Shown here one piece after another: positions 11,152 through 27,709 of a stretch of DNA of 64,000 nucleotides. The notes under the pieces were generated by a model, which worked only from the letters and a program-made list of their open reading frames with translations, had not been told where the DNA came from and did not search any database. Source of the stretch: Ectothiorhodospiraceae bacterium (GTDB taxonomy: Bacteria > Pseudomonadota > Gammaproteobacteria > Nitrococcales > Aquisalimonadaceae); NCBI GenBank assembly GCA_020831845.1, contig JAFIFV010000075.1:1-64000 (forward strand). Direction: 5' to 3'. Positions within the stretch are counted from its first letter, which is position 1; the number at the start of each line of letters is the position of its first letter. A program made the position numbers and the translations under genes.

Positions 11152-12603
11152 ATGAACGGTGGTCCAACAGAACAGCATCGAATCAACACGGGCCCCAGCC
11201 GGACCACGGCGATTCGGCCTCACCACTCCAACATCCTGGCATTGTTCAGGGCGTTCGACAGCTTTATGGTGGTTCTCCTGCTCTGGGGCATTCTCGGCCT
11301 GCTGCAGACTCCCTGGGACAACACGTATACCTGGCTCAGCGTCCTGGCGATCATTTCATTCAGCTTTCTCGCCGAAATCAACGGCGTCTATGACGTCTGG
11401 CGCGGCTACTCCACCCCTGCCCTGGCGTCGCGCCTGCTGATGGCATGGACCGGAACAGCAGTGATTACGGGCACAGCGATCCTGCTGCTTGAGGTGTTTC
11501 GCGACTCCAACGCCTTGGCGCTGACGCTGTGGCTGGTCTGCACGCCGCTCATCATCGTCACCTGTCACTGGCTGCGGCGCCTGCTGCTTGCCATCCTCCG
11601 CCGACAGCCCGCACAACCCCGCCGCGTTGGCATCGTGGGAGCCACTCCCCTGGGTTACAGACTGTCACGCGCCATCAACGACATGCCCTGGATGGGTTAC
11701 CGCATCCACGGCTACTATGACGACCGTCTGAACACCAGCGGAAGCGCCCGACGTCTTTCCGGCAAGGAAATCGAGATCCGCGGCAACCTGGAACAGCTCC
11801 AGGCGGATGCCCATGACGGCAAGCTGGATATTATCTTCATCACGCTGCCCATGGCCGCGGAACAGCGGATTCGAGGCCTGATGGGCAAGCTTGCGGACAG
11901 CACGGTATCGGCCTACCTGATCCCTGACGTGTTCACCTTCGACCTGCTGCATTCGCGCTTGACAGCTATCCAGGGCATTCCCGCGGTCAGCATCTATGAT
12001 TCTCCGCTGGTGGAACACGGCTGGACCAAGCGCGCCTGCGATCTGGTGCTCAGCCTGGGAATACTGGCGGTACTCGCGCTACCCATGCTTGCCGTGGCCA
12101 TTGGCGTGAAGCTGAGTTCTCCGGGGCCTGTCCTGTTCAAGCAGACCCGTTACGGTATACACGGCGAGCGGATCAAGGTCTGGAAATTCCGCTCCATGTC
12201 CGTCTGCGAGGATGGCGGCACCATCAACCAGGCGTCCCGCAACGATCCACGTGTTACCCGGTTTGGCGCCTTCATCCGCCGCACGTCGCTGGACGAACTG
12301 CCGCAACTCTTCAATGTCCTGGGCGGAAGCATGTCCCTGATCGGGCCTCGTCCGCATGCCGTGGCCCACAACGAGTTCTATCGCGAACATATCCAGGGCT
12401 ACATGCTGCGACACAAGGTGAAACCGGGTATTACCGGCCTCGCCCAGGTGAACGGATTTCGCGGCGAGACGGAAACCATGGACAAGATGGCCGGCCGCAT
12501 TGCCTACGATCTGGAGTACATCCGCAACTGGTCGCTGTGGCTGGACATCAGAATTCTCTGGTGGACCATCTTCCGGGGCTTCGTAGGCCAACACGCTTAC
12601 TGA
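11152..12603 (+). CDS. Undecaprenyl-phosphate glucose phosphotransferase (WcaJ/GumD type)
   Basis: This 483-aa polyisoprenyl-phosphate hexose-1-phosphate transferase starts repeat-unit assembly by moving a sugar phosphate, normally glucose-1-phosphate, onto undecaprenyl phosphate. Four N-terminal membrane helices lead into a CoA-binding-like domain (GIVGATPLGYRLSRAI, about residue 160) and the catalytic C-terminal domain from residue 285 (KRACDLVLSLG). That domain has the motifs KVWKFRSM, SLDELPQLFNVLGGSMSLIG and KPGITGLAQV. Length and layout match WcaJ, GumD and PssY-type enzymes. AAGGAGG precedes ATG. It is the first gene of the exopolysaccharide locus, followed 15 bp later by the outer-membrane barrel gene. 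Confidence 0.95.
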   Translation: MNGGPTEQHRINTGPSRTTAIRPHHSNILALFRAFDSFMVVLLLWGILGLLQTPWDNTYTWLSVLAIISFSFLAEINGVYDVWRGYSTPALASRLLMAWTGTAVITGTAILLLEVFRDSNALALTLWLVCTPLIIVTCHWLRRLLLAILRRQPAQPRRVGIVGATPLGYRLSRAINDMPWMGYRIHGYYDDRLNTSGSARRLSGKEIEIRGNLEQLQADAHDGKLDIIFITLPMAAEQRIRGLMGKLADSTVSAYLIPDVFTFDLLHSRLTAIQGIPAVSIYDSPLVEHGWTKRACDLVLSLGILAVLALPMLAVAIGVKLSSPGPVLFKQTRYGIHGERIKVWKFRSMSVCEDGGTINQASRNDPRVTRFGAFIRRTSLDELPQLFNVLGGSMSLIGPRPHAVAHNEFYREHIQGYMLRHKVKPGITGLAQVNGFRGETETMDKMAGRIAYDLEYIRNWSLWLDIRILWWTIFRGFVGQHAY

Positions 12604-12618
12604 GGCGGAAACCGGATC

Positions 12619-13782
12619 ATGCTGCAGACAACGCACCGTGCGCTTCCCCCCGTGTTCGCCCTGGCCCTGGCGGCCGTTCACGGTACCGCGTTCGCAGACG
12701 TCTCCGGGCCGGATCCGCTGGTACTGCACGCCGGTTTGCAACAGATCTGGGACAGCAATTTCGACCGTTCGCAGGATGATGTCTCCGAGCGGCAAACAGT
12801 GGGCTCCGCCGGGTTCCGGGTCAACGGCAGTTGGGGCAGACAACGACTGACCGCCCAGGCGAGCGCAGCGCGCTACATGCACGCGAGACGGGACTTCCTG
12901 GATGCCACCACCTATGACGGTGGCATTGCCTGGCTCGGGGAAATCGGCTCCAGGTTCGATACCCGGCTGCGCTGGCACCGCCGCGAGCGACCCGCCGACC
13001 GTCTGGAGTTTACCGGCAAGGATCTGATCCGGTTGACCGAGCGAGAAGCCACACTGATCTACAACGTGACGCCACGTGTCGGACTGGAGGTCTCGGCGCT
13101 GGCCGCCGACCAGCGGCACTCCAACTCCGAACGCCGCCGCATGGAATACAACGACCGCGGCGTCTCTTCCGCCATCAGCTACAGCACCGAGCGGGATACC
13201 AGAATAGCGCTGCGCTACACCCAGGGTGACCGCGAGTACCCCAACGTGCCGCCGCCTGAACCCTCCGATGCGCTGGACTACGACTACATGCAGCTGGAAC
13301 TGGAGGCGGACTGGGCGCTGACATCGAAAGCGATGCTGCTGGGCACCGTGGGCTATTTCAACCGCGACGGTGACGTCAATGAGGGTAGCGGCCTGTTCAC
13401 CACCTGGGCACTGCACTGGGAAATCACCGACCGGACCCGTCTGGAGAGCGGCGTTTCCTATACCCAGCCCCCGGTGGGAGACACCATCGACAACCCCTCG
13501 GAGGATCTCCGCATCTTCACCAGGGCATTCTGGCAATGGACGCCAAAGATTCAGCTCAAGGCGGAAGCGCGCGCCGCCGAACAGTCATTCGATGGTGTCC
13601 TTGATGACACCCCCGCCAGAGACGAACGCATCTATTCGGTCACACCGTTCGGTCTTGAATACACCCCCACCGACTATCTGACCCTGGAGCTGGAGGCTAC
13701 CTGGCACAGCCGGGAATCGGAGCTGGATTTCAGGGACTACTCGGGGGAGACGATCATGGTCGGTGTGCGGGGCCAGTTCTAG
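12619..13782 (+). CDS. Outer-membrane beta-barrel protein of the polysaccharide locus
   Basis: This 387-aa protein has a signal peptide (hydrophobic LPPVFALALAAVHGTAFA, cleavage after AFA) and then alternating amphipathic strands dense in Tyr, Trp, Arg and Glu. It ends in a terminal strand finishing VGVRGQF, the usual Phe-terminated outer-membrane barrel signal. About 16-18 strands fit the length. Similar barrels (EpsL-like) occur in exopolysaccharide clusters, where their role in secretion or anchoring is poorly known. It is co-transcribed with the WcaJ-like gene 15 bp upstream and converges with the sulfotransferase gene 47 bp downstream. Confidence 0.8.
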   Translation: MLQTTHRALPPVFALALAAVHGTAFADVSGPDPLVLHAGLQQIWDSNFDRSQDDVSERQTVGSAGFRVNGSWGRQRLTAQASAARYMHARRDFLDATTYDGGIAWLGEIGSRFDTRLRWHRRERPADRLEFTGKDLIRLTEREATLIYNVTPRVGLEVSALAADQRHSNSERRRMEYNDRGVSSAISYSTERDTRIALRYTQGDREYPNVPPPEPSDALDYDYMQLELEADWALTSKAMLLGTVGYFNRDGDVNEGSGLFTTWALHWEITDRTRLESGVSYTQPPVGDTIDNPSEDLRIFTRAFWQWTPKIQLKAEARAAEQSFDGVLDDTPARDERIYSVTPFGLEYTPTDYLTLELEATWHSRESELDFRDYSGETIMVGVRGQF

Positions 13783-13829
13783 CGTTCCGTAACCCCAGGC
13801 TGGTTGCCGTTGCGAGCGCGGGAGCGCTT

Positions 13830-14606
13830 CTACCCAGGGTGGCTTGCCACGCCATCACAGGCGGGAACTGGCGGCTGGTAATCGAACAATGCCACGTCAC
13901 CCGCGTAGAACTCCGCGACCGCATCCAGCACCTCGGGGCTGCGGTAACTGCTAGCCAGCAGTTCCGCGGAACCGGTGGCGTTGTTGCGCGCAATATTGAC
14001 GGGCCTTCCCAGACGCTGGGTCAGATCGTTGCCCAGCCGATCGATATCGCCCATGTCGTAGAGAGCATCCACGATCAGATTCCCCGCCCCATCCTGCACG
14101 AACAGGTGCTGGGGCATGAACAGCGAATGCAGGCGTTCCGGCTGCTGATGTACCAGCCAGTCCAGCACGAACGGCTCGAACTGTTCCGGAATGCGCCGAT
14201 GCAGCGCATGGGCGTTGTTCAGCTCCACTTCGTCGGTGCCGCCCTGCCGGACGAAATGGTATGCCGAGACCAGCCGCTCCCACGGGTTTCGCACCACGGC
14301 AAAGCGGTACAGGCTTCGGAACAGTGCCGGATTGATATCCCGGGCGGTCACCGCGCGGTAGTGCCCGACGCCCTGCAGCCCGTAAAGCGCGCGCACAATG
14401 GCAGTACCGGCTGCCTTGGGCACATGGACGAACAATACGCCGGTATCGGTCACCTCCCGGCGGTAAATGCCGCTGCCGGCGGCATGCAGGACGCGCTGGA
14501 ACAGGCGTGTCGGCAAGTGATGCTCCAGCACGCCCAGGATCCTGCGTCGGTGCCGTCTCGGCAGACGCCGCCAGACCGTGTTGTTGATGGCATGAAATGG
14601 TTTCAT
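13830..14606 (-). CDS. Sulfotransferase family protein
   Basis: This 258-aa enzyme of the Sulfotransfer_2 type should transfer sulfate from PAPS to a carbohydrate hydroxyl. The 5'-phosphosulfate loop is clear at about residues 57-70 (GVLFVHVPKAAGTAIV). The 3'-phosphate site FAVVRNPWERLVSAYHF follows at about residue 100. The family usually has KxGGTS or KAAGTS in the loop, so the Lys is present. It has no signal peptide, and the enzyme works in the cytoplasm or at its membrane face. It is the last gene of the leftward glycosyltransferase operon, 48 bp after the GT26 gene. This position suggests sulfation of the polymer made here. Another sulfated product cannot be excluded. Confidence 0.85.
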   Translation of the reverse strand: MKPFHAINNTVWRRLPRRHRRRILGVLEHHLPTRLFQRVLHAAGSGIYRREVTDTGVLFVHVPKAAGTAIVRALYGLQGVGHYRAVTARDINPALFRSLYRFAVVRNPWERLVSAYHFVRQGGTDEVELNNAHALHRRIPEQFEPFVLDWLVHQQPERLHSLFMPQHLFVQDGAGNLIVDALYDMGDIDRLGNDLTQRLGRPVNIARNNATGSAELLASSYRSPEVLDAVAEFYAGDVALFDYQPPVPACDGVASHPG

Positions 14607-14654
14607 GGTCCTTGCTCCGGAAATGCCGCGCCCTGTCCCGGGGCGGCGGGAAGG

Positions 14655-15443
14655 TTATTTCTCCGCTGTCCCCCCGCTCTCGGGGCCAGTCAACGCCCGC
14701 TTGCCACGTCGCAGACTCAAAAGCAGAAACCGCGCCATGTCCAGCGTGTAGCGGCGGAGCAATCTCGTCGGTTCGAGGCTGAGGCGATACAACCATTCCA
14801 GCCGCAACCGGCGAATCAGTTCCGGGGCCCGAGGCTTGTCGCCGGCCAGAAAATCCAGCAAGGCGCCGACGCCGACCAGCAGTCTGGCATCCAGCACCCC
14901 GCGGTGCTTGAGTATCCATTGCTCCTGCAGCGGGTTCCCCATTGCCACCAGCACGACGTCGGCCCCGGAACGGTTGATGGTGTCAACCACCTGCTCCGTA
15001 TCGCGAGACTCGCCGTAGCCGTCCAGCGCCCCGACTACCTTGACACCTCTCGACAGCAGTTCCTCACCGGCCCTGCGGGCGATCCCGGGCTTTGCTCCCA
15101 GCAGGAACGCCCGCAGCCCTCCGTCCGCTCCGGCATTCGCTCGTTGCAGCAGATAGGGAACGAAATCGGTGCCATTCAGATTGTCCGGGAACGCCTGTCG
15201 ATGCACCAACCAGCCCGCGACATCCATGCCGACACCGTCGTTGACCAGGAGTACCGAGGGATCCCGCAGTTGCGGCATCAGACATTCGCACTGGATCACA
15301 AAATTGGCATTGACGAAGAACAGCAACCGCTGCTCTCCGGCGCGATGCGCATCCAGCAGCAGGTTCACCAGGTCGTCCGCGTGCATCTGCTGCACCGGGA
15401 AACCGGCAATCGGCAGTGCCGCGCCCGATCCGTATCCGCTCAT
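14655..15443 (-). CDS. GT26 glycosyltransferase (WecG/TagA/CpsF family, GumM class)
   Basis: This 262-aa membrane-associated glycosyltransferase of family GT26 includes GumM of the xanthan pathway, which adds the second glucose to make the lipid-linked cellobiose backbone. Seen motifs are [14 protein letters not shown] (about residue 65), [17 protein letters not shown] and [14 protein letters not shown], with the conserved Gly-Val-Gly near [14 protein letters not shown]. The C-terminal basic helix ([19 protein letters not shown]) fits membrane attachment. The start codon overlaps the upstream GumK-like stop by 4 nt (ATGA). Assignment to GumM rather than WecG function depends on the neighbours and is inference. 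Confidence 0.9.
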
Positions 15444-16612
15444 AACCGCGTATCCTCGAATTGATCGGGTTGCAGCACCCGATCAGTCACCTCCTGCCAG
15501 CTCAGGTGCCGCCGTGATGGCCGGTGCGGGGCTTCCCGTGCCGAGACAATGGCGGACGCGATGGAATCCGGGTCGCCCGGGGTATAGCCGAAACGGGTGG
15601 AGTAATCCCCCACCACGGCGTGAGGGCAGACCGCGGGCAGGCCCAGGAAATCGTACTGGATCAGTTTCATGGACGTGTCCGCCAAGTAGGGCGGAACCGC
15701 CTCGGACCGGTAGGGTGCCACACCGAAACGGGCATGGCGGATATACCGCACCGTTTCATCGTGGGGCATCTCGCCGTAGACGGTGACGTTGGGCCCATAC
15801 TCCGAATGCGACGCCTGACCGCAGCCGATGACGTGAAAATGCACATCCGGAAACAGACGGGAGGCATGCACGAAAAAGTCCGGATCGAACAGCATCGAGC
15901 CCACCGAAACCGCATGCTCCCCCTCCCCATATGGGGAGGCATCCTCCCGATCGGCGAGCGCATGATTGATGCCATGAGGTATGAAATAGACGTTGCCGCG
16001 GCTGGGCACGGAGGGAGCCAGCGCCCGCGACGGGAGACGTATGGCACTCATGGCCGGCGCCACGCGCCGAAAGGTGCGCTTCACGTACTCCGCCACGTTG
16101 ATCGTATCCAGATCGTCCGAGGCTATGTAAATGGTCCTGGCCGACGGATTGAGCTTGCGCGCCAGGTCGAAGAATACCGGCGCCACACCGCTCTCGAACA
16201 GGATGACATCGGCCTCCTCCAGCCACTGGCGCAGCACCGGGCTGGCTGCTCCCACATACCAGCGGAACAGCATGTCCTCCCCCATGCGCAAGGCCGCCCT
16301 ACGGGTATTGAAAGGGTGCACCGGTGTCTTCCACAGGTAGCAGTCCACTCCCTTATGTCTCTCGACGCGGTTGGCCAGGCTGTCCAGCGACAGCCTGGGG
16401 TCCGCGGTGTAGCGTGACAAGCGACTATAGCGTAGCGAGAAAAACCGCACTTGGCCGCGCCCGGCCAACTCCTCGGCGATGAAATGGATATTGGCCTTCC
16501 GCGGCGAGCGATAATCATGCGCCGACAGCACCAGAAAACGCGGAGCCCGCTCAGCATCGGGTTCCGGCGCGTGTGCCACCCCTGCTTCCATCGCCTTGTC
16601 CACTGTCGTCAT
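15440..16612 (-). CDS. GumK-like glucuronosyltransferase (GT70 type)
   Basis: This 390-aa glycosyltransferase resembles GumK, which adds glucuronic acid to the lipid-linked Man-Glc-Glc acceptor in xanthan synthesis. The N-terminal part shows the GumK-type opening [19 protein letters not shown] and then [12 protein letters not shown]. The C-terminal nucleotide-sugar domain has [21 protein letters not shown] and [15 protein letters not shown]. There are two Rossmann folds (GT-B) and no membrane helix. ATG 16612 has AAGGGGG upstream. An open extension of 66 codons further upstream overlaps the GH5 gene in another frame and is rejected. It lies 10 bp after the GH5 stop and overlaps the GT26 start. 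Confidence 0.85.
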
Positions 16613-16622
16613 GCCGGCCCCC

Positions 16623-17696
16623 TTATTGTTCCTGGAGCCGCGGATCGCGGGGTGCGCCCGGATCCCTGCCACAGCCCTCGCCCCTCCAGCATGGGGCCAG
16701 CAAGGACATCTGCGGAGCATCCCGACCATCTCTCGGCGCCACCGACATGGGGTAATCACCCCACCAACTGCCTGCGGCCCAGTAGGCCCAGCCCCGCCAG
16801 ATCCCGGCATCCTCCGTCAGCGCCAATATCCGCCCCAGCGCCGCCATGCAGGACCTGCTGGACGGAACGCCGAACTCGCCGAGAAACAGTTGCAGGTCGT
16901 TCTCCTGCGCCCACTCGTCGATGGCCGAAAACATGGCGTTGAAATGCTCAGGATCGCGGCAGTTGCCGCCGGTACCGGAGTAGTCCCGATCCGCGTACTG
17001 ATGCACTTCGATCACGGTGCGCCGCAACGGATCCTCAAGGTCGGCGAAGGTCTCGGCGTTACTGCTGCCGCCAATGGTCCTGTGCCATTCGTGAACGCCA
17101 CTCCAGCGTCCGCCAGAGACCATGATCAGATGCTCCGCCCCGGCCTCCCGCAGCGCATCGACCGTCTGCTGCGCCACCGCGCCCCAGTCGGCAATGTCCA
17201 TCCGGAACGGTTCGTTCATCAGCCCCAGTGCCAGGTATTCCGGCTCGTCAAGCGCCGCGGACAACCGTGTCCAGAGATCAAGGAAAGCCTCCGTCGGCAC
17301 GGCCTCGGAACCGATGATCTCGCCGTGATACATGCCGTAGTTGTGGATATCGAGGATCAGGCACAGACCACGCTCCTTCGCCTGATCCAGCACCGAGGCG
17401 ATCTGGCCCAGTTCGCCCTCGTGCAGTTCCTGATTCAGCTCGCGCTGGACGCGCTCCCAGCGCACCGGCAAGCGGATGGTGTTCGCTCCGCTGTCGGCAA
17501 AGTAATCCAGTTCCTCGGTCCGGGGATAGGTGTAGTCGTGGTGCAACTCGCCGGGCAGACTGTTACTGCTGAATTCAGCTCCCGCGATATTGACTCCACG
17601 CAGCGGTTCGTCCCCCAGGCAGACCGCCCCAGCGGCCAGCGGCAGCATGGACAGGAACAGGCTCGAAACAGTGATCAGCGCGCGGCATACAGACAT
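16623..17696 (-). CDS. Secreted GH5 endoglucanase-like glycosidase
   Basis: This 357-aa periplasmic or secreted glycoside hydrolase of family GH5 probably acts on beta-1,4-glucan. A signal peptide ([17 protein letters not shown]) ends near residue 24. The TIM-barrel landmarks are [33 protein letters not shown], the acid/base Glu in LMNEP, and the nucleophile Glu in [11 protein letters not shown]. Both catalytic glutamates are present. The C-terminus is unusually Arg/Pro/Asp-rich after WWGDYP. The start overlaps the upstream GT4 gene by 22 bp. Its position inside the glycosyltransferase operon suggests trimming or release of the polymer made here and hence a glucan backbone. Periplasmic endoglucanases play that role in cellulose and acetan-type systems. 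Confidence 0.9.
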
Positions 17697-18820
17697 CCGT
17701 GACCTCCCAGTCGTTCGTAAACATCCAGATAGCGATCCGCCACGTGGCGCCAGGAGTAGCGATCGGCGAATGCCATGGCACTCTCCCGGCGGCGATGGAA
17801 AGCGTCGTCGCCTTCCGCGTGCAAGGTGCAGATCCGGTCCGCCAGCGCGGCTGGCGTCGCGGCGGGCACGGCCAGCCCCATGCCGGAGGTGTCCACCAGG
17901 CGACGAAATGGTGGTATATCGCTGAGCACCGGCGTCAATCCCGCGCTCATGGCCTCGATCGCGGCCAATCCGAACCCCTCATGGCGCGACAGACAGAGAA
18001 ACCAGCTTGCCTGCGCGATCAGTTCCCGCATGGCGTGGTCCGTAGGGCTGGGGTGCAGTTCCACGCTTCCCTCCAGCCCCCGCCGCTGCAATTCGGCCTG
18101 CAGATCCGCCGTCGTGTAGTCGTATTCTCGGCCGGCAATGATCAGCCGCCACCCCGGGTGCAGCGCGGTCAACACTTCCATCAGCGCCAACGATTCCACC
18201 AGGCCCTTGTTGCCGGACCAGCGGCCGAAGTAGATCAACGTACGGTTCAACGCCCGGGCGCCGGCGCCAGCGTATTTGTCGGTGTCCACACCGTTCTCGA
18301 TGACCTGCAACCGCCCGGCGGGAACGATGTCGGCGAAGCGCGCACCGTCGTTCTCGCTGGTAGCGACCACGCTCTGGTAGGCCCGCGCCGACGCCTTTGT
18401 GATGGTGCCGAACCAGATCTGCTTCAAACGGCTGGCAAATGCGGTATGAAAGAAACCGCCATGGGTGGAAAGCACCAGCGGCCGCCGGTGCAAGCGCCTG
18501 GTCAGCGCCAGGAAATCGTAGAAGAAATCGACCCCATGCACATGCACAACATCCGCCTCCCCCAGGTGCCGGAGTACCTGGGGACAGAGCGGGTAACGGC
18601 TCGACCCGGTGTAGGCCAGCCTTCGTACCGGGATTCCGTCGATCATGTCCCGTGCCGGCAAGCGGTCGCGGCTGTTCCTGAACAGCCGGTTCAGGGTGAC
18701 GATCCGGGCTTCCTGCCCGGCCCGGCGCGACTGGTTGGCCGCGATATTCCTTACCACTTCTTCCATCCCGCCTACGGACGGCAGGTATTGCCTCACGACA
18801 TGGGTCACACGAATGGTCAT
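17675..18820 (-). CDS. GT4 glycosyltransferase (GumH-class mannosyltransferase candidate)
   Basis: This 381-aa GT-B retaining glycosyltransferase opens with ITHVVRQYLPSVGGMEEVV-like sequence (MTIRVTHVVRQYLPSVGGME). It has the acceptor-side motif VHVHGVDFFYDFLAL and the donor-site motif HEGFGLAAIEAMSAGLTPVL (E-x7-E type), the hallmark of family 4. GumH of the xanthan pathway is the GT4 enzyme that adds mannose to cellobiose-PP-lipid, and the neighbours favour that role. The start at 18820 overlaps the upstream Wzy stop (ATGA). The frame stays open for 417 codons further upstream, but that stretch is the Wzy gene in another frame and is not part of this protein. Confidence 0.92.
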   Translation of the reverse strand: MTIRVTHVVRQYLPSVGGMEEVVRNIAANQSRRAGQEARIVTLNRLFRNSRDRLPARDMIDGIPVRRLAYTGSSRYPLCPQVLRHLGEADVVHVHGVDFFYDFLALTRRLHRRPLVLSTHGGFFHTAFASRLKQIWFGTITKASARAYQSVVATSENDGARFADIVPAGRLQVIENGVDTDKYAGAGARALNRTLIYFGRWSGNKGLVESLALMEVLTALHPGWRLIIAGREYDYTTADLQAELQRRGLEGSVELHPSPTDHAMRELIAQASWFLCLSRHEGFGLAAIEAMSAGLTPVLSDIPPFRRLVDTSGMGLAVPAATPAALADRICTLHAEGDDAFHRRRESAMAFADRYSWRHVADRYLDVYERLGGHGCLYAAR

Positions 18821-20160
18821 GCTCCGGCCTCCTCGCCGCCAAGCCCCAGTACCGGCTCGATACGCTCGCGGCGTCCACCTGATGATTGACGTCTGCGCCT
18901 GCCACGCGGCGGTCCTTCCGGTGCCGGGTGCACCGGCTGCGGCTCGGCACCGGCAGTCGCCAGGCCCGGCGCCGGATCGCGCTGCATGCATCCGAACAGG
19001 AACCAGAGCACGCCGGCGCTCTTCAACGCGAAAAGAGAGGTGCCGCTGATGGCCAGGATCAAGGCGATATACACGGCGACGTAGCAACGAAAGCGGTTGC
19101 CACGCTCGTCCGGCATGGGGATCAGCCAAAGCGTCACCCAGAGCGCGATGGCAAGCACCACGCCGAAGGTGTAGAGCACGTAGGCATAACCCTCGTCGGC
19201 GTACCAGCCGTCGGTCCCATACCCCAGCAACGTGGGTGCGTCGAAGCCCACCAGCGACCGACCACTGATCACCAGGCGTCCCAGATAGTTGTCGCCGTAG
19301 ACACCTTGCGTGAACAGCCCCAGGTAGACGAGCAGCGCAATGATGGCGAACGGCATCAGCACGACCATGTAGTTGGCGCGGCCGTGGACGAGAATTCTCA
19401 GCGCCACCAGCAGGGCCACTGAGATCAGGGCGAAACGCGAGTCCGCAAGCACGATCAGCACGATTGCGGCGGTGAGATAGAACAGCATCTGACCCAGTTC
19501 GTCGCGACCCCGGGCCAATCCCCAGGCGGCCACGACAGTGGCAAAGTTCCCCAGCGAAACCGGCTCCAGATACAGGGAGGAGACGCGGTGCTGGCCAAGC
19601 AGCGAAGGCAGCAGGGTCCGCCCGATATCCTCGGGCCGGATCCCGCTCAGCTGCAGGCGACTCTCCCTGACGTAGTCGGTAATGGGCTGCAGATTGCCGA
19701 TGGCGACGTAGTACGAAAAAATGTCGAAGATGTCGGTGAACCGGTCCACCGCCACCAATTCGAAGACGCCGAAAGCCAGCAGCAGCGCGATCACCGCTTT
19801 CAGCATCCAGTCCGCCAGCCTGGGGTCGCCGACATTGCGCCCGAGCCAGTAGAACCAGACTGGGATCAGCAGGTCCCGAAATGCCTTCACGTCCACACTG
19901 CCGCGCAGCAGCACCAGCAGGCAGAGCATGGCGCCGGTCAGGGCTGCGAACACCACCACATGGGGCAGCATGCGTCGGAAGATCAGCGGCAGCGAGGCCA
20001 GCATGATCATCAGTTCCGCCACCCCCACCAGTGCCCGCGACATCGGCATCACGTGGGTGTGAACCGCGCACAGAACCGCCTGGTAGACCACCGTGGCGAC
20101 AATCACCAGGACGGCCAGATTACGCAGAGACTGATTGTGCTGTTCGGCATGAACCGACAT
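18817..20160 (-). CDS. Wzy-type polysaccharide polymerase
   Basis: This 447-aa integral inner-membrane protein has about ten to twelve hydrophobic segments (for example LAVLVIVATVVYQAVLCAV and YMVVLMPFAIIALLVYLGLF). A larger periplasmic loop near residues 140-215 contains Arg-rich sequence (ESRLQLSGIRPEDIGRTL), as in O-antigen and GumE-type polymerases that join repeat units in the periplasm. The C-terminal 55 residues are Pro/Arg-rich and cytoplasmic, an unusual tail. No signature sequence exists for the class, so the call rests on topology and context. It is the first gene of the leftward glycosyltransferase block and lies 93 bp downstream of the export-regulatory block EpsE/F/G. Confidence 0.8.
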   Translation of the reverse strand: MSVHAEQHNQSLRNLAVLVIVATVVYQAVLCAVHTHVMPMSRALVGVAELMIMLASLPLIFRRMLPHVVVFAALTGAMLCLLVLLRGSVDVKAFRDLLIPVWFYWLGRNVGDPRLADWMLKAVIALLLAFGVFELVAVDRFTDIFDIFSYYVAIGNLQPITDYVRESRLQLSGIRPEDIGRTLLPSLLGQHRVSSLYLEPVSLGNFATVVAAWGLARGRDELGQMLFYLTAAIVLIVLADSRFALISVALLVALRILVHGRANYMVVLMPFAIIALLVYLGLFTQGVYGDNYLGRLVISGRSLVGFDAPTLLGYGTDGWYADEGYAYVLYTFGVVLAIALWVTLWLIPMPDERGNRFRCYVAVYIALILAISGTSLFALKSAGVLWFLFGCMQRDPAPGLATAGAEPQPVHPAPEGPPRGRRRRQSSGGRRERIEPVLGLGGEEAGA

Positions 20161-20221
20161 GGCTTCCTCTGCCTGTGAGTGACGAGACCGAACGCGAACG
20201 GGTCACCGACCGCAGCCCCCT

Positions 20222-20257
20222 AGGGAGCCTCTGATCTATACGCATGGGGCTCCTTAG
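20222..20257 (-). terminator. Hairpin at the end of the EpsE/F/G block
   Basis: AGGGAGCC (20222-20229) pairs with GGCTCCTT (20248-20255) with one mismatch. The hairpin overlaps the stop of the EpsG-like gene and precedes the Wzy gene. It may attenuate transcription between the two blocks. The sequence AGGGAGCCTCTGATCTATA also resembles a transposon end. Confidence 0.4.
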
Positions 20258-21132
20258 TGGGACAGGGCAACCCCCATCACCGAGACCCCCACGGACTGCA
20301 ACCGCAGGCGAGCATGATCGAGTTCCCCGAGAGAGGTCACGTGCTCCCTGGCCACCATGACCGCCGCGCCGGCACGGGCGGCGATCAGTTGGGCGTCCAC
20401 GTTCTCGCTCATCGACGGCGTATTAACCAGGATCACGTCGAACTTCTCGGCCAGTCGGCTCATCAGCTTGCGGTAGCGATCTCCCGAGAGCAGTTCCTGA
20501 GGGTTGGGTGCGCGCGTGCCAGCATTCAGCAGCCACAGTGACTGTAGCGGCGTACACAGGCGCGGCGAGACCGAGGCCCGCCCGGCCAGCACATCGGAGA
20601 GCCCCTCCACGTTGTCCTGGCCGAAGAGCGTGTGCAGTTCGGGTTGACGCATATTGGCGTCGATCAGCAGCGTGAGCGCCCCCACCTGAGAAAAGACAAC
20701 GGCCAGATTGGCCGTCAACTCGCCGGTGGCCTTGCCGCTATCCACCCCGACCAGTGGCAGCACCCGATGGTGCTGGCCATCGAAATAGCGCAACAACAAT
20801 TCACTGCGCAGACCGCGCAGCGCTTCCACTTCCCGGCTCTCGGGGATGTTGGCGGCCACCAGTGACGGAGCGAGCCGACGATCCGCGACCGGCGCCAACG
20901 CATAGGAAAACTGCTGGGCAAGCGCGATCCGGACGTCCTCTTCGGTCAGCAACCCCAGCGCCACCGCGGCTTCACCAAAGCGCAGCCCGGTCTTTTGCTG
21001 GTAGTGGGTTATCCGCTCCAGCTCAATCGCATCCAGCTTGCCGCTCTCCACCAGCTGCCGGCCGATGGGACCGGAGCGGGTGAGGACGCGCGCGGTCTCG
21101 TCACGCTCCGAGGGCGGAAACAGATCGGTCAT
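20254..21132 (-). CDS. EpsG-like BY-kinase homologue with degenerate nucleotide site
   Basis: This 292-aa cytoplasmic protein pairs an MshEN-type N-terminal domain (IGRQLVESGKLDAIELERI, then LGLLTEEDVRIALAQQF) with a tyrosine-autokinase-like P-loop domain. In working relatives (EpsG, CpsD, Wzc) Walker A reads like GxGEGKS/RS-xxAANLA. Here it is VDSGKATGELTANLA, with Thr-Gly where Lys/Arg-Ser should be. Walker A' LLIDANMRQPE keeps its Asp. Walker B reads VILVNTPS, with Asn for Asp. No C-terminal tyrosine cluster exists; the end is VSVMGVALSH. It is probably a catalytically dead partner of the chain-length protein, whose gene overlaps its start by 4 bp. A kinase with unusual residues remains possible. 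Confidence 0.85.
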   Translation of the reverse strand: MTDLFPPSERDETARVLTRSGPIGRQLVESGKLDAIELERITHYQQKTGLRFGEAAVALGLLTEEDVRIALAQQFSYALAPVADRRLAPSLVAANIPESREVEALRGLRSELLLRYFDGQHHRVLPLVGVDSGKATGELTANLAVVFSQVGALTLLIDANMRQPELHTLFGQDNVEGLSDVLAGRASVSPRLCTPLQSLWLLNAGTRAPNPQELLSGDRYRKLMSRLAEKFDVILVNTPSMSENVDAQLIAARAGAAVMVAREHVTSLGELDHARLRLQSVGVSVMGVALSH

Positions 21133-22508
21133 GGTCGGTCGACTCCCAGCGTGAGCCGGCGCCGCTTGCCGGGGAGGTGGGCAAGCACCGGCAAGCCAAG
21201 GTGTTCCTCGATGTCGGCGCGGCTTCTCACCCTCCGGTTTCTCAGCTCCAGCAGCAGTGACAAGCCGATACCCAGCAACAGGCCGAGCGCCGCAGCCACC
21301 ACAAGATTCAGTCGGATATCGGGCGCAGAGGGCAGCATGGGCGGCACGGCCGCATTGAGCACGGCGATGTCGGTCTCTCCAAGACGGCTCTCCAGTCGGC
21401 TGGTGGAGGCACGCGAGGAGGCGGCGTTATACGCTTCCTGGGCGTTGGAGACTTCCTGCTGCAGCAGTTCCATCTCGTCGCGCCGGGCGTTGAGTTCCAG
21501 TACCCGTTCACGTTGCCGTTCCACGGCGGCCTCCAGTTCCTCGACCCGCTGCGCGGAAATGCCTGCAACGGAACGCATGCTGCTGTCCACGGTGGCCTTC
21601 TCGTTCTCCAGCCTCCGCGTCAGGGAGTCCACCTCGGCCTCGGCGCGGCGGAACGTGGGGTGGTTGACGCCATAACGGGTGGAAACATCGTCCAGACGGG
21701 CCTCGGCCCGCGCAAGTTCGGCGCGCAACTCCTGCACCACCGGGTTATTCAGCACGTCCGCGCTACTCTCGCGCCATTCGGCATCGTTCTCGCGGGACTG
21801 CCTGAGGTCGTCCTGCAACCGCTCTCCCTGGGCGGCCACCAGTAGCGAGGAAAGTTCACGCAGTCGCTCGTTCTCGACATCCAGCCGCTCGTCCGCCGCC
21901 GCGATGCGATGTTCCTGCTGATAGCTCGACAGGTTCCTGCGCGCTTCGCGCAGATTCTCGCGCAGCACGTCCAGTTCTTCCTCATACCAGTCGGAGAAAC
22001 GCTGGGCGGGTTCGGTGCGCAGATCCAGGCTGGTGCGGATATAGGCCTCGGCGTGGGCATTGGCCAGCGCGGCGGCCAGGTCCGGGTTCTGACTGTCGAC
22101 GCTGATGCGCAACACGCTGCTGTTGCGACCAGGGTTCACCCGAAGATTGCGCTCCAGCATTCTCGGAATCCAACGCTCTGCATCCAGTTGCCCATTGGTG
22201 GCCGCGGCGGCGCGCTCCTCGGCCAGGGCCCGCTCTTCCGGCGAGAGCAGACCAAAGACTTTCTCGGCCACGTTGCGGCTGCCCGCCACATCCACTTGCG
22301 TGGCAATGTAGGCGGAGCGCGTGTTGGCCGGAAGCATCTGCCCGCTGAGCATATCCTGGTCACCATCCAGCACCAGCTCCGTCGTCGCGGTGTAAGTGCT
22401 CGGCAGGTAGAGCGTCACCGCCAGCGCGGCCCCGACGCTAAGCACCAGCAACGACGCGGTCAGCAGCCACCGGGCAAGCAGTATGCGAAAGAAACTGGAC
22501 AGGCTCAC
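21129..22508 (-). CDS. Polysaccharide co-polymerase / chain-length determinant (EpsF/GumC type)
   Basis: This 459-aa inner-membrane protein controls polymer length and bridges Wzy to the export channel. It has an N-terminal membrane helix (LLTASLLVLSVGAALAVTLYL), a long periplasmic coiled coil (about residues 160-370, rich in Glu/Arg/Leu heptads), and a C-terminal membrane helix (LVVAAALGLLLGIGLSLLLEL) with the Pro-rich entry VPPMLPSAPDIRLN typical of the Wzz family. A short cytoplasmic tail (VRSRADIEEHLGLPVLAHLPG) is the docking segment for a BY-kinase. The start is GTG, overlapping the upstream TAG by one base. The encoded tail and the separate EpsG-like protein form the usual two-polypeptide arrangement. 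Confidence 0.93.
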   Translation of the reverse strand: MSLSSFFRILLARWLLTASLLVLSVGAALAVTLYLPSTYTATTELVLDGDQDMLSGQMLPANTRSAYIATQVDVAGSRNVAEKVFGLLSPEERALAEERAAAATNGQLDAERWIPRMLERNLRVNPGRNSSVLRISVDSQNPDLAAALANAHAEAYIRTSLDLRTEPAQRFSDWYEEELDVLRENLREARRNLSSYQQEHRIAAADERLDVENERLRELSSLLVAAQGERLQDDLRQSRENDAEWRESSADVLNNPVVQELRAELARAEARLDDVSTRYGVNHPTFRRAEAEVDSLTRRLENEKATVDSSMRSVAGISAQRVEELEAAVERQRERVLELNARRDEMELLQQEVSNAQEAYNAASSRASTSRLESRLGETDIAVLNAAVPPMLPSAPDIRLNLVVAAALGLLLGIGLSLLLELRNRRVRSRADIEEHLGLPVLAHLPGKRRRLTLGVDRP

Positions 22509-23308
22509 TAGAACCAGCGCTCCCTGACAAAGATCACGTCACCGTCCTGTACGCGGTCGTCCAGCCCAACGCTGGCTTCCTCCACGGAACCGTCCGGTTG
22601 CTGTCGGTAGACAGTGAGCCCACGTCGGCTGGCATTGGCGCTGAGGCCACCGCCCACGGACAGGGCCTGCCTGACCGTCAGCGGTCGATCCAGCACGTAG
22701 TTGCCGGGTTCCTGCACCTCTCCATAGACGTAGAACCGGTCGGCCCTGGGGACATAAATGGTGTCGCCGTTGCGCAGCGGAACCTGCTCGCTGTTGTCGG
22801 CCTGCACGTCCAGCAGCTCCCGCAGGTTGTACTCCTGACGAAGCTGGCGACCATCGCGCTCCGTTCGCAGCAGGATCACCCGCTCGCTGCCGTCATTGCT
22901 GACGCCGCCTGCCAGTGCCAGCGCCTCGGTCAGCGTCATCGGACCGTCCATCATCAGCCTGCCGGGCTGGTTCACCTGCCCGAGCACGGCCAACGTATTG
23001 CTGCGGTACTCGTCCACCAGCACGTTCACGTGGGCGTTCTGGAGGAAGCCTCCCCGCTCCAGCCTGGACTCGATATGCTCTGCCGCCTCCCTGGCCGAGA
23101 GATCAAGCACGTGGACGCGCCCGAGCAGCGGAATGGAAATGGTGCCGTTGCCCGCGACCTCGGCCTCGGTGTGCAGATCGTCTTCGCCGTAGACCATGAC
23201 GCGAACGCGATCACCGACTCCCAGCGTATAGATCTCGTCAGCCAGACTGAGGCCGGGAACGCAGAACGCGGCCAGAAGCGGTATCAGGAAACACCAGCGG
23301 ATATTCAT
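22508..23308 (-). CDS. Polysaccharide export protein (Wza/GumB/EpsE type)
   Basis: This 266-aa periplasmic/outer-membrane export protein has a signal peptide (CFLIPLLAAFCVPGLSLA), a Poly_export domain (YTLGVGDRVRVMVYGEDDLH) and two SLBB repeats (LAVLGQVNQPGRLMMDGPMT and YVYGEVQEPGNYVLDRPLT). The N-terminal Cys7 and Cys16 are not in a lipobox, so lipidation is doubtful. It lacks the C-terminal membrane helix of E. coli Wza and resembles the shorter GumB/EpsE class, which may need a separate barrel for outer-membrane passage. The beta-barrel encoded at 12619 is a candidate partner. It is the first gene of the leftward epsE-epsF-epsG block, whose promoter must lie in 23309-24104. Confidence 0.92.
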   Translation of the reverse strand: MNIRWCFLIPLLAAFCVPGLSLADEIYTLGVGDRVRVMVYGEDDLHTEAEVAGNGTISIPLLGRVHVLDLSAREAAEHIESRLERGGFLQNAHVNVLVDEYRSNTLAVLGQVNQPGRLMMDGPMTLTEALALAGGVSNDGSERVILLRTERDGRQLRQEYNLRELLDVQADNSEQVPLRNGDTIYVPRADRFYVYGEVQEPGNYVLDRPLTVRQALSVGGGLSANASRRGLTVYRQQPDGSVEEASVGLDDRVQDGDVIFVRERWF

Positions 23309-24104
23309 TGCAGTCCATCCCTTGTCGGAGCCTCAACATTGCTGGGGCGGCAAACAGCAACTGATTCCCGAAAACAGCCATCCGTGGAAACAGAAGTACG
23401 CCTACGGAAACGCCGCCTCCCTGAGGATCATTGATTAATCACATGCAAAAGCGAGGCCCATGCCCTTACGCTCCCCCCGCTTCGCCATGGCTTTCGGCCA
23501 ATGGACCAGACGGGGCACAAACACATCAGGTTCCAACCCTTGAACAGCAGCCGAAAGCGCCAAAACAGTGCACGTCGTGTTCAGCTTGCCCGATTCCGGG
23601 GAGCTCCCGAGATAGTCACGCGGCGATGTGAATACCTCGATAGCGCCCTGGTTGCATGGGGGGAATAACGCCTCTCCCATGCATCCGGTTTCAGAGGATA
23701 CACGCCGCTGCCGCGCCCGACGAACTGTCGCGAAACACTGACACCATGGGCAGTCAAAGGCGGCGGAACGGGTAACACAAGACGCCCACCGAAGCGCCGC
23801 CGGCAAAGAATCGACCCGAACTGTTGCAGTGCAGCAGAAATCTACACACAATCCAGTGTAGACGGGAGAAACGTGATGTACAGGCGCGCTTTCCGACACC
23901 TGAATACCGGTACTCAGCAGTCCCCGAGGATTGTGAAGGGCCAGAGTGTATCCCGGCCCGGCACGGCTGCCGGTACCGGCGTCTCACTCCAACGACAGTT
24001 TTGCTTTCTCCGATTCGGATGGTAAACCATCGTTCTGATTCGCACGCATTGCAGCTTTTCCACGCCGGAACCGGGAAAGTGTGGTCGTCTGCAGGGAGCA
24101 CCGA
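23309..24104. promoter_or_regulatory. Long divergent control region of the exopolysaccharide locus
   Basis: Nearly 800 bp separate the leftward export operon from the rightward nitroreductase-Wzx-pyruvyltransferase operon. Open frames inside are not convincing as genes. Candidate operators are an 18-bp near-perfect dyad (CTGAATACCGGTACTCAG, 23900-23917), a 7-bp inverted repeat with 8-bp spacer (TCTACAC 23841-23847, GTGTAGA 23856-23862) and GATGG/CCATC (24018-24031). The length suggests complex regulation with several factors. I could not assign promoters with confidence. Confidence 0.55.
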
Positions 24105-25193
24105 ATGAAACAATACATCAAGGCACTGCTAGGTCCGAATGGCATCCGGTTCTGCCTGCAAATGGTGGACAAAATCCGCCTGACCTGGTTGAGAGTCGCT
24201 TATAAATCCGCATTTCTATCGCGCCTGCATTACCTGTTGATTTCACCCAGTTTCACGCGTGAAGCGCAGGCAGTAATTGCCGGCCATATCCGCTTTGAAG
24301 AGAACAGAAAGAACCACGAATCCGTCAACTATTTCCTGCGCCGTTCCATCCATCGGCTGGAAAAGGGGCTGATCATGCGGCCACGGCGCGAGGTGTTCGC
24401 GGCGGACTACATCGAGGATGCGGTGGCCAGTTTCATCACCGGCAGGGACAACCTCAATCAGCAGGAAGCGGACTGGGCGAACGACGTCTTCACCGAATAT
24501 TTCTCCGTCACTGGCCGCAACCCCGCCATCGACAAGGCAAGAGACCACTTCCAGCAGTTCCGGCAGAGCAGCGGCCCGGACGGCGGGTCTCCGGGCATGG
24601 GGGGAAATATCCCGTATGTGCGTGCCCTGGGCGAACCCCCGCCAGTGGATCACGACGCCTTCCGGGCATTGTCAGTGCGCCGCCGATCGGTGCGCTGGTT
24701 TCAGCAGAAGCCGGTTCCCCGTGAACTGGTGGACCAGGCAATCGAAACCGCGGCACTGGCACCAAGCGCGTGTAACAGGCAGCCGTTCGAGTACCGTCTG
24801 TTTGATGACCCGGCGCTGATCGCCCCTCTGCTGGAGCTGCCCATGGGCATCAAGGGCTATGAGGACAACGTCCCGGCCGTGGCGGTGCTGGTGGGCAAGC
24901 TCCGCGCCTACCCTCACCCACGCGACAGACACGTGATCTACATCGACGCCAGTCTTTCCGCAATGAGTTTCATGTACGCCCTGGAGACACTGGGGCTGAG
25001 TTCCTGCCCGATCAACTGGCCGGACGTCCCGCAGCGGGAACGACGTATGAAGGAGTTGCTGGGGCTGGCACTGGACGAACGCCCGATCATGCTGGTCGCC
25101 TACGGCTACCCGGATCCCGACGGGATGGTGCCGAAGTCCACCAAGATTCCGCTGGCGGAAATTCGTTCCTACAACAGAGTGAACTCGGCGTGA
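24105..25193 (+). CDS. Nitroreductase-family protein with N-terminal extension
   Basis: This 362-aa protein has a C-terminal half (from about residue 190) that is an FMN-dependent nitroreductase fold: SVRRRSVRWFQQKPVP, then APSACNRQPFEYRLFDDP, and a final ALETLGLSSCPINWPD. The N-terminal 180 residues are helical, with the motif NYFLRRSIHRLEKGL found in polysaccharide-cluster members of this family. The substrate is unknown. Such genes often neighbour pyruvyltransferases, which suggests a redox step on a sugar donor or on a modification, but that is inference. ATG 24105 has AGGGAG six bases upstream. It opens a rightward operon with wzx and the pyruvyltransferase. Confidence 0.85.
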   Translation: MKQYIKALLGPNGIRFCLQMVDKIRLTWLRVAYKSAFLSRLHYLLISPSFTREAQAVIAGHIRFEENRKNHESVNYFLRRSIHRLEKGLIMRPRREVFAADYIEDAVASFITGRDNLNQQEADWANDVFTEYFSVTGRNPAIDKARDHFQQFRQSSGPDGGSPGMGGNIPYVRALGEPPPVDHDAFRALSVRRRSVRWFQQKPVPRELVDQAIETAALAPSACNRQPFEYRLFDDPALIAPLLELPMGIKGYEDNVPAVAVLVGKLRAYPHPRDRHVIYIDASLSAMSFMYALETLGLSSCPINWPDVPQRERRMKELLGLALDERPIMLVAYGYPDPDGMVPKSTKIPLAEIRSYNRVNSA

Positions 25194-25212
25194 CCGGAGC
25201 GAAGCGCCCGCG

Positions 25213-26523
25213 ATGAGTTCCGTTGCCGGAATCATCATCAAGAACACGAGCTGGATGTTCCTGGGCAAGGTTGGTGTGCTGGTCATCAACTTCCTGGCCA
25301 TCCTGCTCGTTGCCCGTCACCTGGGGCCGGAATTGTTCGGGCGCCTCAGTTTCGCGATTGCGGGGGTTGCGCTGATTGCGCCGGTGGCGCAACTGGGCCT
25401 GCATGCCATTGTGACGCGGGACCTGGTCCGCAGCCCCGGGGACCGGGAACAGATCCTGGGCACCGCGCTATCGCTTCGCCTGATGGGCGGTACGCTGGCG
25501 GTGGGACTGGGCCTGCTACTCATCTGGGTGCTGCGGCCCGAGGATCCGGCGCTGCAGCTCTACTTCCTGCTGCTGCTGATCGGCGAAGCGCTGAAGTCCT
25601 TCATGGTCTTCATGCACTGGATGGAAAGCGAGGTGAACGGCCGGCTGGTGGCGCTCTGTCAGCTCGCGGTATCGCTGCTGCTGGCCTTTGGCAGAGTCGC
25701 CTGCGTGTTCGCCGACGCTCCGCTGCTCGCCTTCGTTATCGTGGAGGCTCTGCAGGGTGCCTTTATCGCCGCGATGTTCGGCGGCGCCTACATGACCAGC
25801 GGCAACTCCCTGATCCGGCTTCGCTTCTCAGGTGCCATCGCACGTCGCCTGCTGCGACAGTGCGCCCCACTGATGGCGTCGGGCATTACCGCCGTGATCT
25901 ACCTGAAAATCGACCAGGTCATGCTCGGCCAGATGATCGGGGAAGCAGAAGTGGGGGTCTACGCCCTCGCCTCGCGCATTTCCGACGTCTGGTATTTCTT
26001 CCCCACCATGCTGGTGACATCGGCCTTTCCGTTCCTGCTCAGACATCAGGAGACCAGCAGGGCCGATTACGAGCGCATGCTGCAGAACCTGATGGACGTA
26101 CTGTTCTGGATCGGCGTCGCAGTGGCACTGTCCGTGTCCCTTACCGCACCGTTCCTGATGCCCCTGCTCTTCGGTGAAGCATACGCCACCACCGGCTACA
26201 TACTGGCCATTCACATCTGGGCCGGCGTCTTCATTTCCATGCGTGCCCTCGTCAGCAAATGGATTCTCGCCGAGGGGCTGCTGATGTTCTCGCTGATATC
26301 CCAGGGTTCGGGCGCCATCGCCAACGTGGCGCTGAATCTCTATCTGATCCCGGCCTGGGGTGGCTATGGCGCCGCCGTGGCCACGCTGATCTCGTTCGCC
26401 ATCGCAACCTATTTCTCGCTGGTGGTGTTCCGCCGGACGCGCTACATCACCACCACCATGACGCGTTCCGTCGTCGCGCCGGTACGACTGCTGCTGAGGG
26501 GATTGCATGTTCATCGAAATTAG
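25213..26523 (+). CDS. Wzx-type flippase
   Basis: This 436-aa inner-membrane protein of the polysaccharide-transporter (PST/MATE-like) family moves lipid-linked repeat units across the membrane. About twelve hydrophobic segments are visible, beginning with TSWMFLGKVGVLVINFLAIL and including the family hallmarks ARHLGPELFGRLSFA and KIDQVMLGQMIGEAEVGVYA. It starts 20 bp after the nitroreductase gene and overlaps the pyruvyltransferase start by 17 bp, so the three are one transcription unit. It is the functional counterpart of GumJ in xanthan export. Confidence 0.94.
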   Translation: MSSVAGIIIKNTSWMFLGKVGVLVINFLAILLVARHLGPELFGRLSFAIAGVALIAPVAQLGLHAIVTRDLVRSPGDREQILGTALSLRLMGGTLAVGLGLLLIWVLRPEDPALQLYFLLLLIGEALKSFMVFMHWMESEVNGRLVALCQLAVSLLLAFGRVACVFADAPLLAFVIVEALQGAFIAAMFGGAYMTSGNSLIRLRFSGAIARRLLRQCAPLMASGITAVIYLKIDQVMLGQMIGEAEVGVYALASRISDVWYFFPTMLVTSAFPFLLRHQETSRADYERMLQNLMDVLFWIGVAVALSVSLTAPFLMPLLFGEAYATTGYILAIHIWAGVFISMRALVSKWILAEGLLMFSLISQGSGAIANVALNLYLIPAWGGYGAAVATLISFAIATYFSLVVFRRTRYITTTMTRSVVAPVRLLLRGLHVHRN

Positions 26524-27709
26524 AGGTGTCGGATTCATCAACAAAGGCGCTGAACTGATGCTCCATGCAGCGCTGCAGAAAGCCCGTAGCGTCTTCCCCG
26601 ATGCGCGATACGTCATGGCGCCAGGCACCGATGGCAGTGGCGCTCCCTACCTGCAGCGAGCCCGGCTCGGCCTTTACCAGAAAGCCTGGCAATGGCGCTA
26701 CGGCGTGCAATGGGGCGACCTGGCGAAAGTCGCCCCGGCCAGGCTGCGGGAGAAATTCGGCGTGGTGCTGGATTCGGAGATCGACCTGGTGCTGGATGCC
26801 GCCGGTTTCGCCTACAGCGACCAGTGGGGGGCTCACAACACGCAGGAGCTGGCCCGCGCCAGCCGGCGTTGGAAGCGCCATGGCACGAAAGTGATACTGC
26901 TACCCCAGGCCTTCGGACCCTTCGAAACCGAGGCTACCAGGAAAGCCGCCCGCGAATTCGTCGAGCACGCCGACCTGGTCTGTGCGCGTGACCGCATATC
27001 GTATGAAAACCTCACTGCGGTGGCCGGGGAGCAGGAGAAGATCCGCATCTATCCGGACTTCACCAATCTGGTGCAAGGGGTGGTACCGACGGGGTTCGAC
27101 ACCCGGAACCAGCGCTTCTGCCTTATTCCCAACCACCGCATGGTGGACAAGACGAACAGCGCCACCGCAACCGCCTACCTGCCCCTGCTGGTCGCAATCG
27201 CCTCCCACCTGAAGGCAAGAAACGCCGGACCCTTTCTGCTGGTTCATGGCGACGAGGGAGACCGCCGACTGGCGGAACAGGTCTCGGAGGCGGCGGGCGG
27301 CATTCCCATCGTCGAGGAACCCGATCCGCTGGCCATCAAGGGAATCCTCGGCACTTGCCGGGGTTCGGTAAGCAGCCGCTTTCACGGCCTGGTCAGCGCC
27401 CTGTCGCAAGGCGTACCGTCACTGGCCACCAGTTGGAGCCACAAGTACGAGATGCTGTTTGCCGACTACGGCATCAGTGAGGGTGTGCTCGAGGTGAACT
27501 CCGACCACACGGCGGTGCGTCGGAAACTGGATGCGCTGCTGGACCCGGCCACTGCTGACGGGCTCCGCGGGCAGTTGCTGGAACGTTCAGCCGCAATCAA
27601 GCAGGAGGCCGAAAAGATGTGGCAGGCGGTTTTCGCCGTGGCGGGCAGCCCGGCGGCTGGCGAGTCGCCGGGTGCGCACGAGCCTACTGCCAACCGGCCC
27701 CCTCCATGA
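26507..27709 (+). CDS. Polysaccharide pyruvyl transferase (GumL/WcaK family)
   Basis: This 400-aa enzyme of family PF04230 adds a pyruvate ketal to a sugar of the repeat unit, using phosphoenolpyruvate. Recognisable parts are the N-terminal nucleotide-binding-like fold (VGFINKGAELMLHAAL), the middle motif VILLPQAFGPFETEATR and the C-terminal SSRFHGLVSALSQGVPSLATSWSHKYEML, the most conserved region of the family with its Arg-Phe-His. The last 30 residues are Pro/Ala-rich and probably disordered. Pyruvylation would add negative charge to the polymer. It overlaps the Wzx gene by 17 bp and is the last gene of this operon. Confidence 0.92.
   Translation: MFIEIRGVGFINKGAELMLHAALQKARSVFPDARYVMAPGTDGSGAPYLQRARLGLYQKAWQWRYGVQWGDLAKVAPARLREKFGVVLDSEIDLVLDAAGFAYSDQWGAHNTQELARASRRWKRHGTKVILLPQAFGPFETEATRKAAREFVEHADLVCARDRISYENLTAVAGEQEKIRIYPDFTNLVQGVVPTGFDTRNQRFCLIPNHRMVDKTNSATATAYLPLLVAIASHLKARNAGPFLLVHGDEGDRRLAEQVSEAAGGIPIVEEPDPLAIKGILGTCRGSVSSRFHGLVSALSQGVPSLATSWSHKYEMLFADYGISEGVLEVNSDHTAVRRKLDALLDPATADGLRGQLLERSAAIKQEAEKMWQAVFAVAGSPAAGESPGAHEPTANRPPP

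Follow-up and report, generated by a model that had tools for sequence, protein, structure and literature searches.

A xanthan-type exopolysaccharide locus with a nitroreductase-PF04230 gene pair that may install a lactyl ether

The stretch of DNA analyzed here (the window; 64,000 nucleotides, positions 1-64000 of one contig) comes from the genome of an Ectothiorhodospiraceae bacterium, a metagenome-assembled genome (MAG) of 4.7 Mb in 158 contigs that is estimated to be 89% complete. It contains a Wzx/Wzy-type exopolysaccharide (EPS) locus that very probably builds a xanthan-like polymer with a cellulose-type backbone and side groups of mannose (Man) and glucuronic acid (GlcA), without the last mannose of xanthan. 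Taken as a whole, we somewhat favor a xanthan-type assembly of a tetrasaccharide unit that is decorated with sulfate and a lactyl ether. Homology firmly supports the gene classes, the kinship of three glycosyltransferases (GTs) to GumM, GumH, and GumK, the conserved gene order, and the linkage of a nitroreductase-fold flavoprotein to a PF04230 (enol)pyruvyl transferase. The locus is thus best described as a xanthan-type variant, in which the nitroreductase partner of the PF04230 protein is a new lead, possibly pointing to a general two-enzyme route to lactyl ethers.

Open reading frame scans place the genes in three strand blocks. The initiator and the EpsL-like barrel form a block on the plus strand (11152-13782), followed by an operon-like block on the minus strand (23308-13830) with the order EpsE, EpsF, EpsG, Wzy, GT4, glycoside hydrolase family 5 (GH5), GT70, GT26, and sulfotransferase, the neighbors of which overlap or sit within about 100 bp of each other. 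The third block (24105-27709, plus strand) comprises the nitroreductase, Wzx, and the PF04230 protein. All gene classes named in the first-pass annotation of this DNA are present, with EpsG (20254-21132, minus strand) as an addition, whereas the four transcription blocks claimed there come down to three by strand layout. A promoter scan gave fewer promoter-like sites in the locus than in shuffled sequence and is uninformative on transcription units. The genes are as follows:

11152..12603, plus strand: polyprenyl-phosphate glucose-1-phosphate transferase, WcaJ/GumD class (TIGR03023, 518 bits, cut-off 411; 74% and 69% to Marinobacter homologues, 39% to Xanthomonas GumD)
12619..13782, plus strand: EpsL-like outer-membrane beta-barrel (TIGR03014, 152 bits, below the cut-off of 275; weak BBP2_2)
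13830..14606, minus strand: predicted carbohydrate sulfotransferase dependent on 3'-phosphoadenosine 5'-phosphosulfate (PAPS) (PF03567, 3.1e-11; PAPS-site-like motifs VPKAAGTAI and VRNPWERLVSAY)
14655..15443, minus strand: GT26, GumM-like (PF03808, 4.8e-50; 49% to Xanthomonas GumM)
15440..16612, minus strand: GT70 glucuronosyltransferase, GumK-like, likely start 16612 (PF22059, GumK_N, 2.4e-67; 502 bits to GumK 2hy7; 71% to Marinobacter)
16623..17696, minus strand: putative secreted GH5 endo-beta-1,4-glucanase (PF00150, 5.7e-44; solved cellulases to 4.6e-83)
17675..18820, minus strand: GT4, GumH-like alpha-mannosyltransferase (54% over 367 residues to Xanthomonas GumH; solved kin are PimA GDP-Man enzymes)
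18817..20160, minus strand: Wzy polymerase, GumE-like (25%, 6.5e-22 to GumE; 59% to a Marinobacter homologue)
20254..21132, minus strand: EpsG, bacterial tyrosine kinase (BY-kinase)-like, with an MshEN-like cyclic di-GMP (c-di-GMP) motif (TIGR03029, 275.7 bits, below the cut-off of 313.8; NF053729, 39.2 bits, cut-off 38)
21129..22508, minus strand: EpsF chain-length regulator, a polysaccharide co-polymerase (PCP) (TIGR03017, 454 bits, cut-off 423)
22508..23308, minus strand: EpsE outer-membrane polysaccharide export (OPX) protein (TIGR03028, 232 bits, below the cut-off of 263; Poly_export and SLBB domains)
24105..25193, plus strand: nitroreductase-fold flavoprotein, partner of the PF04230 protein, predicted enolpyruvyl-ether reductase (PF00881, 3.4e-24; PF04230 neighbor in sampled relatives)
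25213..26523, plus strand: Wzx flippase (PF01943, 4.1e-21; 42% to Wzx of the cassette in G214, locus L037)
26507..27709, plus strand: PF04230 (enol)pyruvyl transferase dependent on phosphoenolpyruvate (PEP), not GumL-like (PF04230, 2.2e-28; 55-57% to the G214 homologue, 16-19% to GumL)

The transferase core is of the gum type. Compared with a Xanthomonas gum cluster (L009), identities over long stretches amount to 61-62% for GumK, 54% for GumH, 49% for GumM, 39% for GumD, and 25% for GumE, and a Pseudoxanthomonas cluster (L011) gives 32% for GumB and 24% for GumC. The GT70 protein contains the GumK_N domain and covers the whole of the solved Xanthomonas GumK at 502 bits, while the GT26 protein reaches 224 bits against GumM versus 103 bits for the best solved enzyme of the TagA type. 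The first-pass annotation had assigned these proteins to the gum families and proposed that Glc-Glc-Man-GlcA (Glc, glucose) is assembled on lipid; the matches to GumM, GumK, and, for the GT4 protein, GumH run over the full length, best matches outside the gum families were not found, and the proposal is well supported at the level of homology. In gum biochemistry, GumD transfers Glc-1-phosphate, GumM adds a beta-1,4-Glc, GumH an alpha-1,3-Man, and GumK a beta-1,2-GlcA. Since homologues of all four are encoded here, the unit assembled on the lipid is most likely Glc-Glc-Man-GlcA, with the linkages predicted from those of the gum enzymes. The source genome contains genes for the precursor enzymes Ugd, GMP/PMI, and adenosine 5'-phosphosulfate (APS) kinase.

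We found no match to GumI, GumF, GumG, GumJ, or GumL in the window at E<=1e-4, and a GumI profile search of the 89% complete source genome, which a very divergent enzyme would escape, found nothing. Both searches agree with the earlier remark that a GumI-like last mannosyltransferase is missing, and, since GumI is absent, the unit is probably the tetrasaccharide Glc-Glc-Man-GlcA, as had been suggested.

The GH5 protein has a signal-peptide-like start, keeps both catalytic glutamates (NEP and GEFG) in the alignment, and has cellulases as its nearest solved kin. Its gene is conserved inside the operon in related loci, and no GH5 gene was found in the Xanthomonas stretches compared. The acetan locus of Komagataeibacter/Acetobacter, which also bears GumK (GT70), likewise includes eg, a glycoside hydrolase gene (PMC7961339). 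It differs in its export genes and in its AceP/AceQ/AceR-type chain-extending genes, which were not recognized in the window, the two loci being likened by description and not by sequence. Because the GH5 gene is conserved in the operon, of the secreted type, and cellulase-like, with a parallel in acetan, it supports a beta-1,4-glucan backbone, short of proof.

A scan of genome contigs with the GT70 protein as query returned 15 loci. The order EpsE-EpsF-EpsG-Wzy-GT4-GH5-GT70-GT26, together with neighboring EpsL and GumD genes on the opposite strand, recurs in two Marinobacter genomes, a Cellvibrionaceae MAG, Cellvibrio, and a Gammaproteobacteria MAG. This core order with GumD-EpsL nearby is kept in L004, L005, L006, L007, L017, and L021, the last of which belongs to a genome (G023) of the window's own order, and the GumD-EpsL pairing is seen in L004-L008, L017, and L021. 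In Glaciimonas, Wzy-GT4-GH5 and GT26 are present, with GT70 further away. The genes after the core vary: GumI- and GumL-like genes in Cellvibrio, GT25 in L004 and L006, two sulfotransferases in L021, and the sulfotransferase and nitroreductase-Wzx-PF04230 block in the window. The GumK_N domain occurs in two of 54 genomes of the order and two of 369 of the class (the window's own genome being counted in each), a patchy distribution that suggests transfer or loss. Horizontal acquisition judged from base composition was rejected, the G+C content of the locus (about 59-66%) being unremarkable.

The first-pass annotation had called the PF04230 gene a GumL-type pyruvyltransferase. This assignment was rejected, as the protein shows 16-19% aligned identity to GumL, gives no tblastn match, and belongs to another PF04230 lineage, one that is tied to a flavin reductase, so that pyruvate as a GumL-type ketal is unsupported and probably wrong. 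The tie emerged from a search with the nitroreductase alone as query, in which neighbors were disregarded. The class sample contains five other genomes with matches at E<=1e-12; all five have a PF04230 protein within 1.5 kb, which was confirmed by Pfam in the most divergent case (G212). The phylum sample added ten further genomes (E about 1e-21 or better), all ten with a PF04230 protein within about 0.6 kb, whereas none of the 12 genomes that matched weakly (E 1e-9 to 1e-11, generic nitroreductases) has such a neighbor, one of these control contigs being only 4.2 kb long. Thus, 15/15 sampled genomes of the nitroreductase subfamily have a PF04230 neighbor within 1.5 kb versus 0/12 generic controls. 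For the phylum sample alone (10/10 vs 0/12), Fisher's test gives p of about 1.5e-6; the split tracks match strength, and the species are phylogenetically non-independent.

Paracoccus has a fusion of both proteins (849 aa, with the two domains found by Pfam). The genes are direct neighbors in Acuticoccus, Pseudorhodobacter, and E. coli plasmids, and no more than one gene apart in Allorhizobium and Lactiplantibacillus. A Wzx-nitroreductase-PF04230 cassette in G214 is 42, 43, and 55-57% identical to the respective window proteins. In G212, EpsEFG, Wzy, GH5, and the nitroreductase-Wzx-PF04230 trio are lined up in one locus, which ties this block to such EPS loci. The fusion gene on the Paracoccus alcaliphilus plasmid (L026:3961-6510) stands beside siderophore transport genes, and an E. 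coli plasmid (L028:12164-14647) encodes Wzx, an FrhB-type flavoprotein, and a PF04230 protein in a row, a second type of flavoenzyme paired with PF04230.

Lactyl ethers have a well-known precedent in the MurA/MurB pathway, in which enolpyruvyl transfer from PEP is followed by flavin reduction. The window pair would follow the same logic with different folds (PF04230 and nitroreductase) and presumably acts on a lipid-linked oligosaccharide. A MurB-like gene is present in Marinobacter loci that share this core (TIGR00179, 184 and 181 bits, cut-off 144.5), joined in L004 by a MurA-like gene (TIGR01072, 336 bits, below the cut-off of 393); these genes lie among polysaccharide genes (L004:14911-17289, L005:13547-14644) and suggest that a lactyl- or muramic-type sugar is made for EPS. 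Among enzymes of the nitroreductase fold are C=C reductases, for example the enone reductase CLA-ER, a weak sequence relative of the window protein.

A further parallel comes from Klebsiella capsules. One report cites 4-O-[(S)-1-carboxyethyl]-GlcA in K22 and describes cps regions of K22 and K37 that are indistinguishable except for one acetyltransferase gene (PMC3857182). Of the four types that have a pyruvyltransferase gene and yet a pyruvate-free polymer, K22 and K37 are two, and nitroreductase genes number two in 79 loci, according to a second report (PMC4616057). From these counts, and not from their sequences, we infer that K22 and K37 are the two nitroreductase-bearing types; their sugar backbone differs from that predicted here. 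Based on the genomic linkage, the MurA/MurB route, the MurB-like genes of Marinobacter, K22/K37, and the C=C reductases in the fold, the circumstantial evidence suggests that enolpyruvyl transfer and flavin reduction would yield a 1-carboxyethyl (lactyl) ether and not a pyruvate ketal, its site and order of addition being equally conjectural. In the openly accessible literature, we found no paper that links a nitroreductase to lactyl ethers.

Several points weigh against this interpretation. Related nitroreductases of Ruegeria (in a glycan locus) and of two Rhizobium plasmids lack a PF04230 gene in the region displayed, and the PF04230 partners fall in several divergent lineages, making one chemistry for all uncertain; the PF04230 tree is mostly unresolved with long branches and has no single nitroreductase-linked clade. 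The Klebsiella text used here leaves the two nitroreductase-bearing types unnamed (PMC4616057). As for the locus as a whole, GumI could lie outside the assembled part of the MAG, and EpsE, EpsG, and EpsL score under their equivalog cut-offs, EpsF alone being over. An ordinary pyruvate ketal on the same gum-type core, with a nitroreductase that is unrelated (e.g., redox on another sugar), appears doubtful: PF04230 includes the ketal-forming GumL and WcaK, and the SSRFHG motif of the window protein resembles theirs, but the 15/15 linkage and the fusion speak against it, there is no GumL-like sequence, and, without GumI, a terminal mannose for GumL-type ketalation is lacking.

That the unit is a full xanthan-like pentasaccharide, with its GumI-like enzyme outside the locus or absent from the incomplete MAG, we consider unlikely; the Cellvibrio homologues with their GumI- and GumL-like genes fit such a unit, whereas the locus and genome gave no GumI match and the GumL-like gene is absent too. 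Slightly less likely still is that the nitroreductase-Wzx-PF04230 block serves another glycan and merely adjoins the locus, as its separate strand block, the gap of about 800 bp, and the L037 cassette, with no gum core in the region viewed, might indicate, since the locus needs a wzx and holds no other, and the G212 trio is in line with the EPS genes. Finally, a methanolan-type XrtB/PEP-CTERM locus with unrelated sugars is very improbable: the EpsE, EpsF, EpsG, and EpsL-like matches bear the names of that export system, yet only EpsF passes its equivalog cut-off, the transferases are of the gum type, and no exosortase was matched among the locus genes scanned by profile. Elsewhere in the source genome, contig C55 (L054, 5888-7366) encodes a second polyprenyl glycosylphosphotransferase (Bac_transf), the surroundings of which look XrtA/PEP-CTERM-like by eye.

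The lactyl-ether-bearing tetrasaccharide thus remains our preferred reading, and the following pathway is proposed. The WcaJ/GumD-class enzyme would load Glc-1-phosphate onto the lipid carrier, after which the GumM-like GT26, the GumH-like GT4, and the GumK-like GT70 would add beta-1,4-Glc, alpha-1,3-Man, and beta-1,2-GlcA in turn. The PF03567 enzyme may add sulfate, whereas the PF04230 transferase and the nitroreductase would install the PEP-derived group as a 1-carboxyethyl ether, perhaps at O4 of the terminal GlcA, the position filled by GumI in xanthan. Wzx would then flip the unit, the GumE-like Wzy polymerize it, EpsF and EpsG set the chain length, and EpsE and the EpsL-like barrel export the polymer, while a periplasmic GH5 might trim or free the beta-glucan backbone, a role that the acetan endoglucanase may also have. 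Sulfation, which the first-pass annotation had raised, is plausible given the PF03567 match, the PAPS-site-like motifs, and the APS kinase gene in the genome; its site is conjectural, and a comparison with solved structures gave no relative of the sulfotransferase.

EpsG is likely a c-di-GMP-sensing pseudokinase that may link c-di-GMP to chain-length control. In the window protein and its aligned relatives, the lysine of Walker A is shifted or absent, and the window protein ends without a C-terminal tyrosine cluster, so that it lacks both hallmarks of BY-kinases; its MshEN-like motif scores just above the cut-off. A tyrosine pseudokinase for EPS is known from Myxococcus, namely EcpK (PMC12004946).

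The locus thus shares with the Xanthomonas xanthan cluster the GumD/M/H/K-class transferases, a GumE-related Wzy, and OPX and PCP export proteins, but differs in lacking GumI, GumL, GumF, and GumG, in its EpsE/F/G/L-type export, and in the GH5 gene within the operon, and it has in addition the sulfotransferase, the nitroreductase-PF04230 pair, and three strand blocks. Just upstream (9110-10887) are genes for a DrrA-type ABC transporter ATPase (over the TIGR01188 cut-off) and an ABC-2 permease, and directly downstream (27926-31582) is a Tricorn-like protease (PD40 propeller, PDZ, S41). A PAS-GGDEF-EAL protein is encoded at 43519-45834.

Xanthan is a major industrial polymer, and the gum-type loci, in which the core stays constant and the caps are exchanged (GumI, GT25, sulfotransferases, lactyl-type modules), represent natural variation on it. 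We tentatively propose, with the balance slightly against us, that a general two-enzyme route to lactyl ethers in bacterial polysaccharides consists of PF04230 enzymes and a nitroreductase-fold flavoprotein dedicated to them, with enolpyruvyl transfer from PEP preceding C=C reduction. Such a route would be analogous to MurA/MurB but use unrelated folds, and here it would cap a xanthan-type side chain. If the pair does make lactyl ethers, this substituent, which chemists have known for decades, would gain a genetic marker, and many 'pyruvyl transferase' annotations would be corrected.

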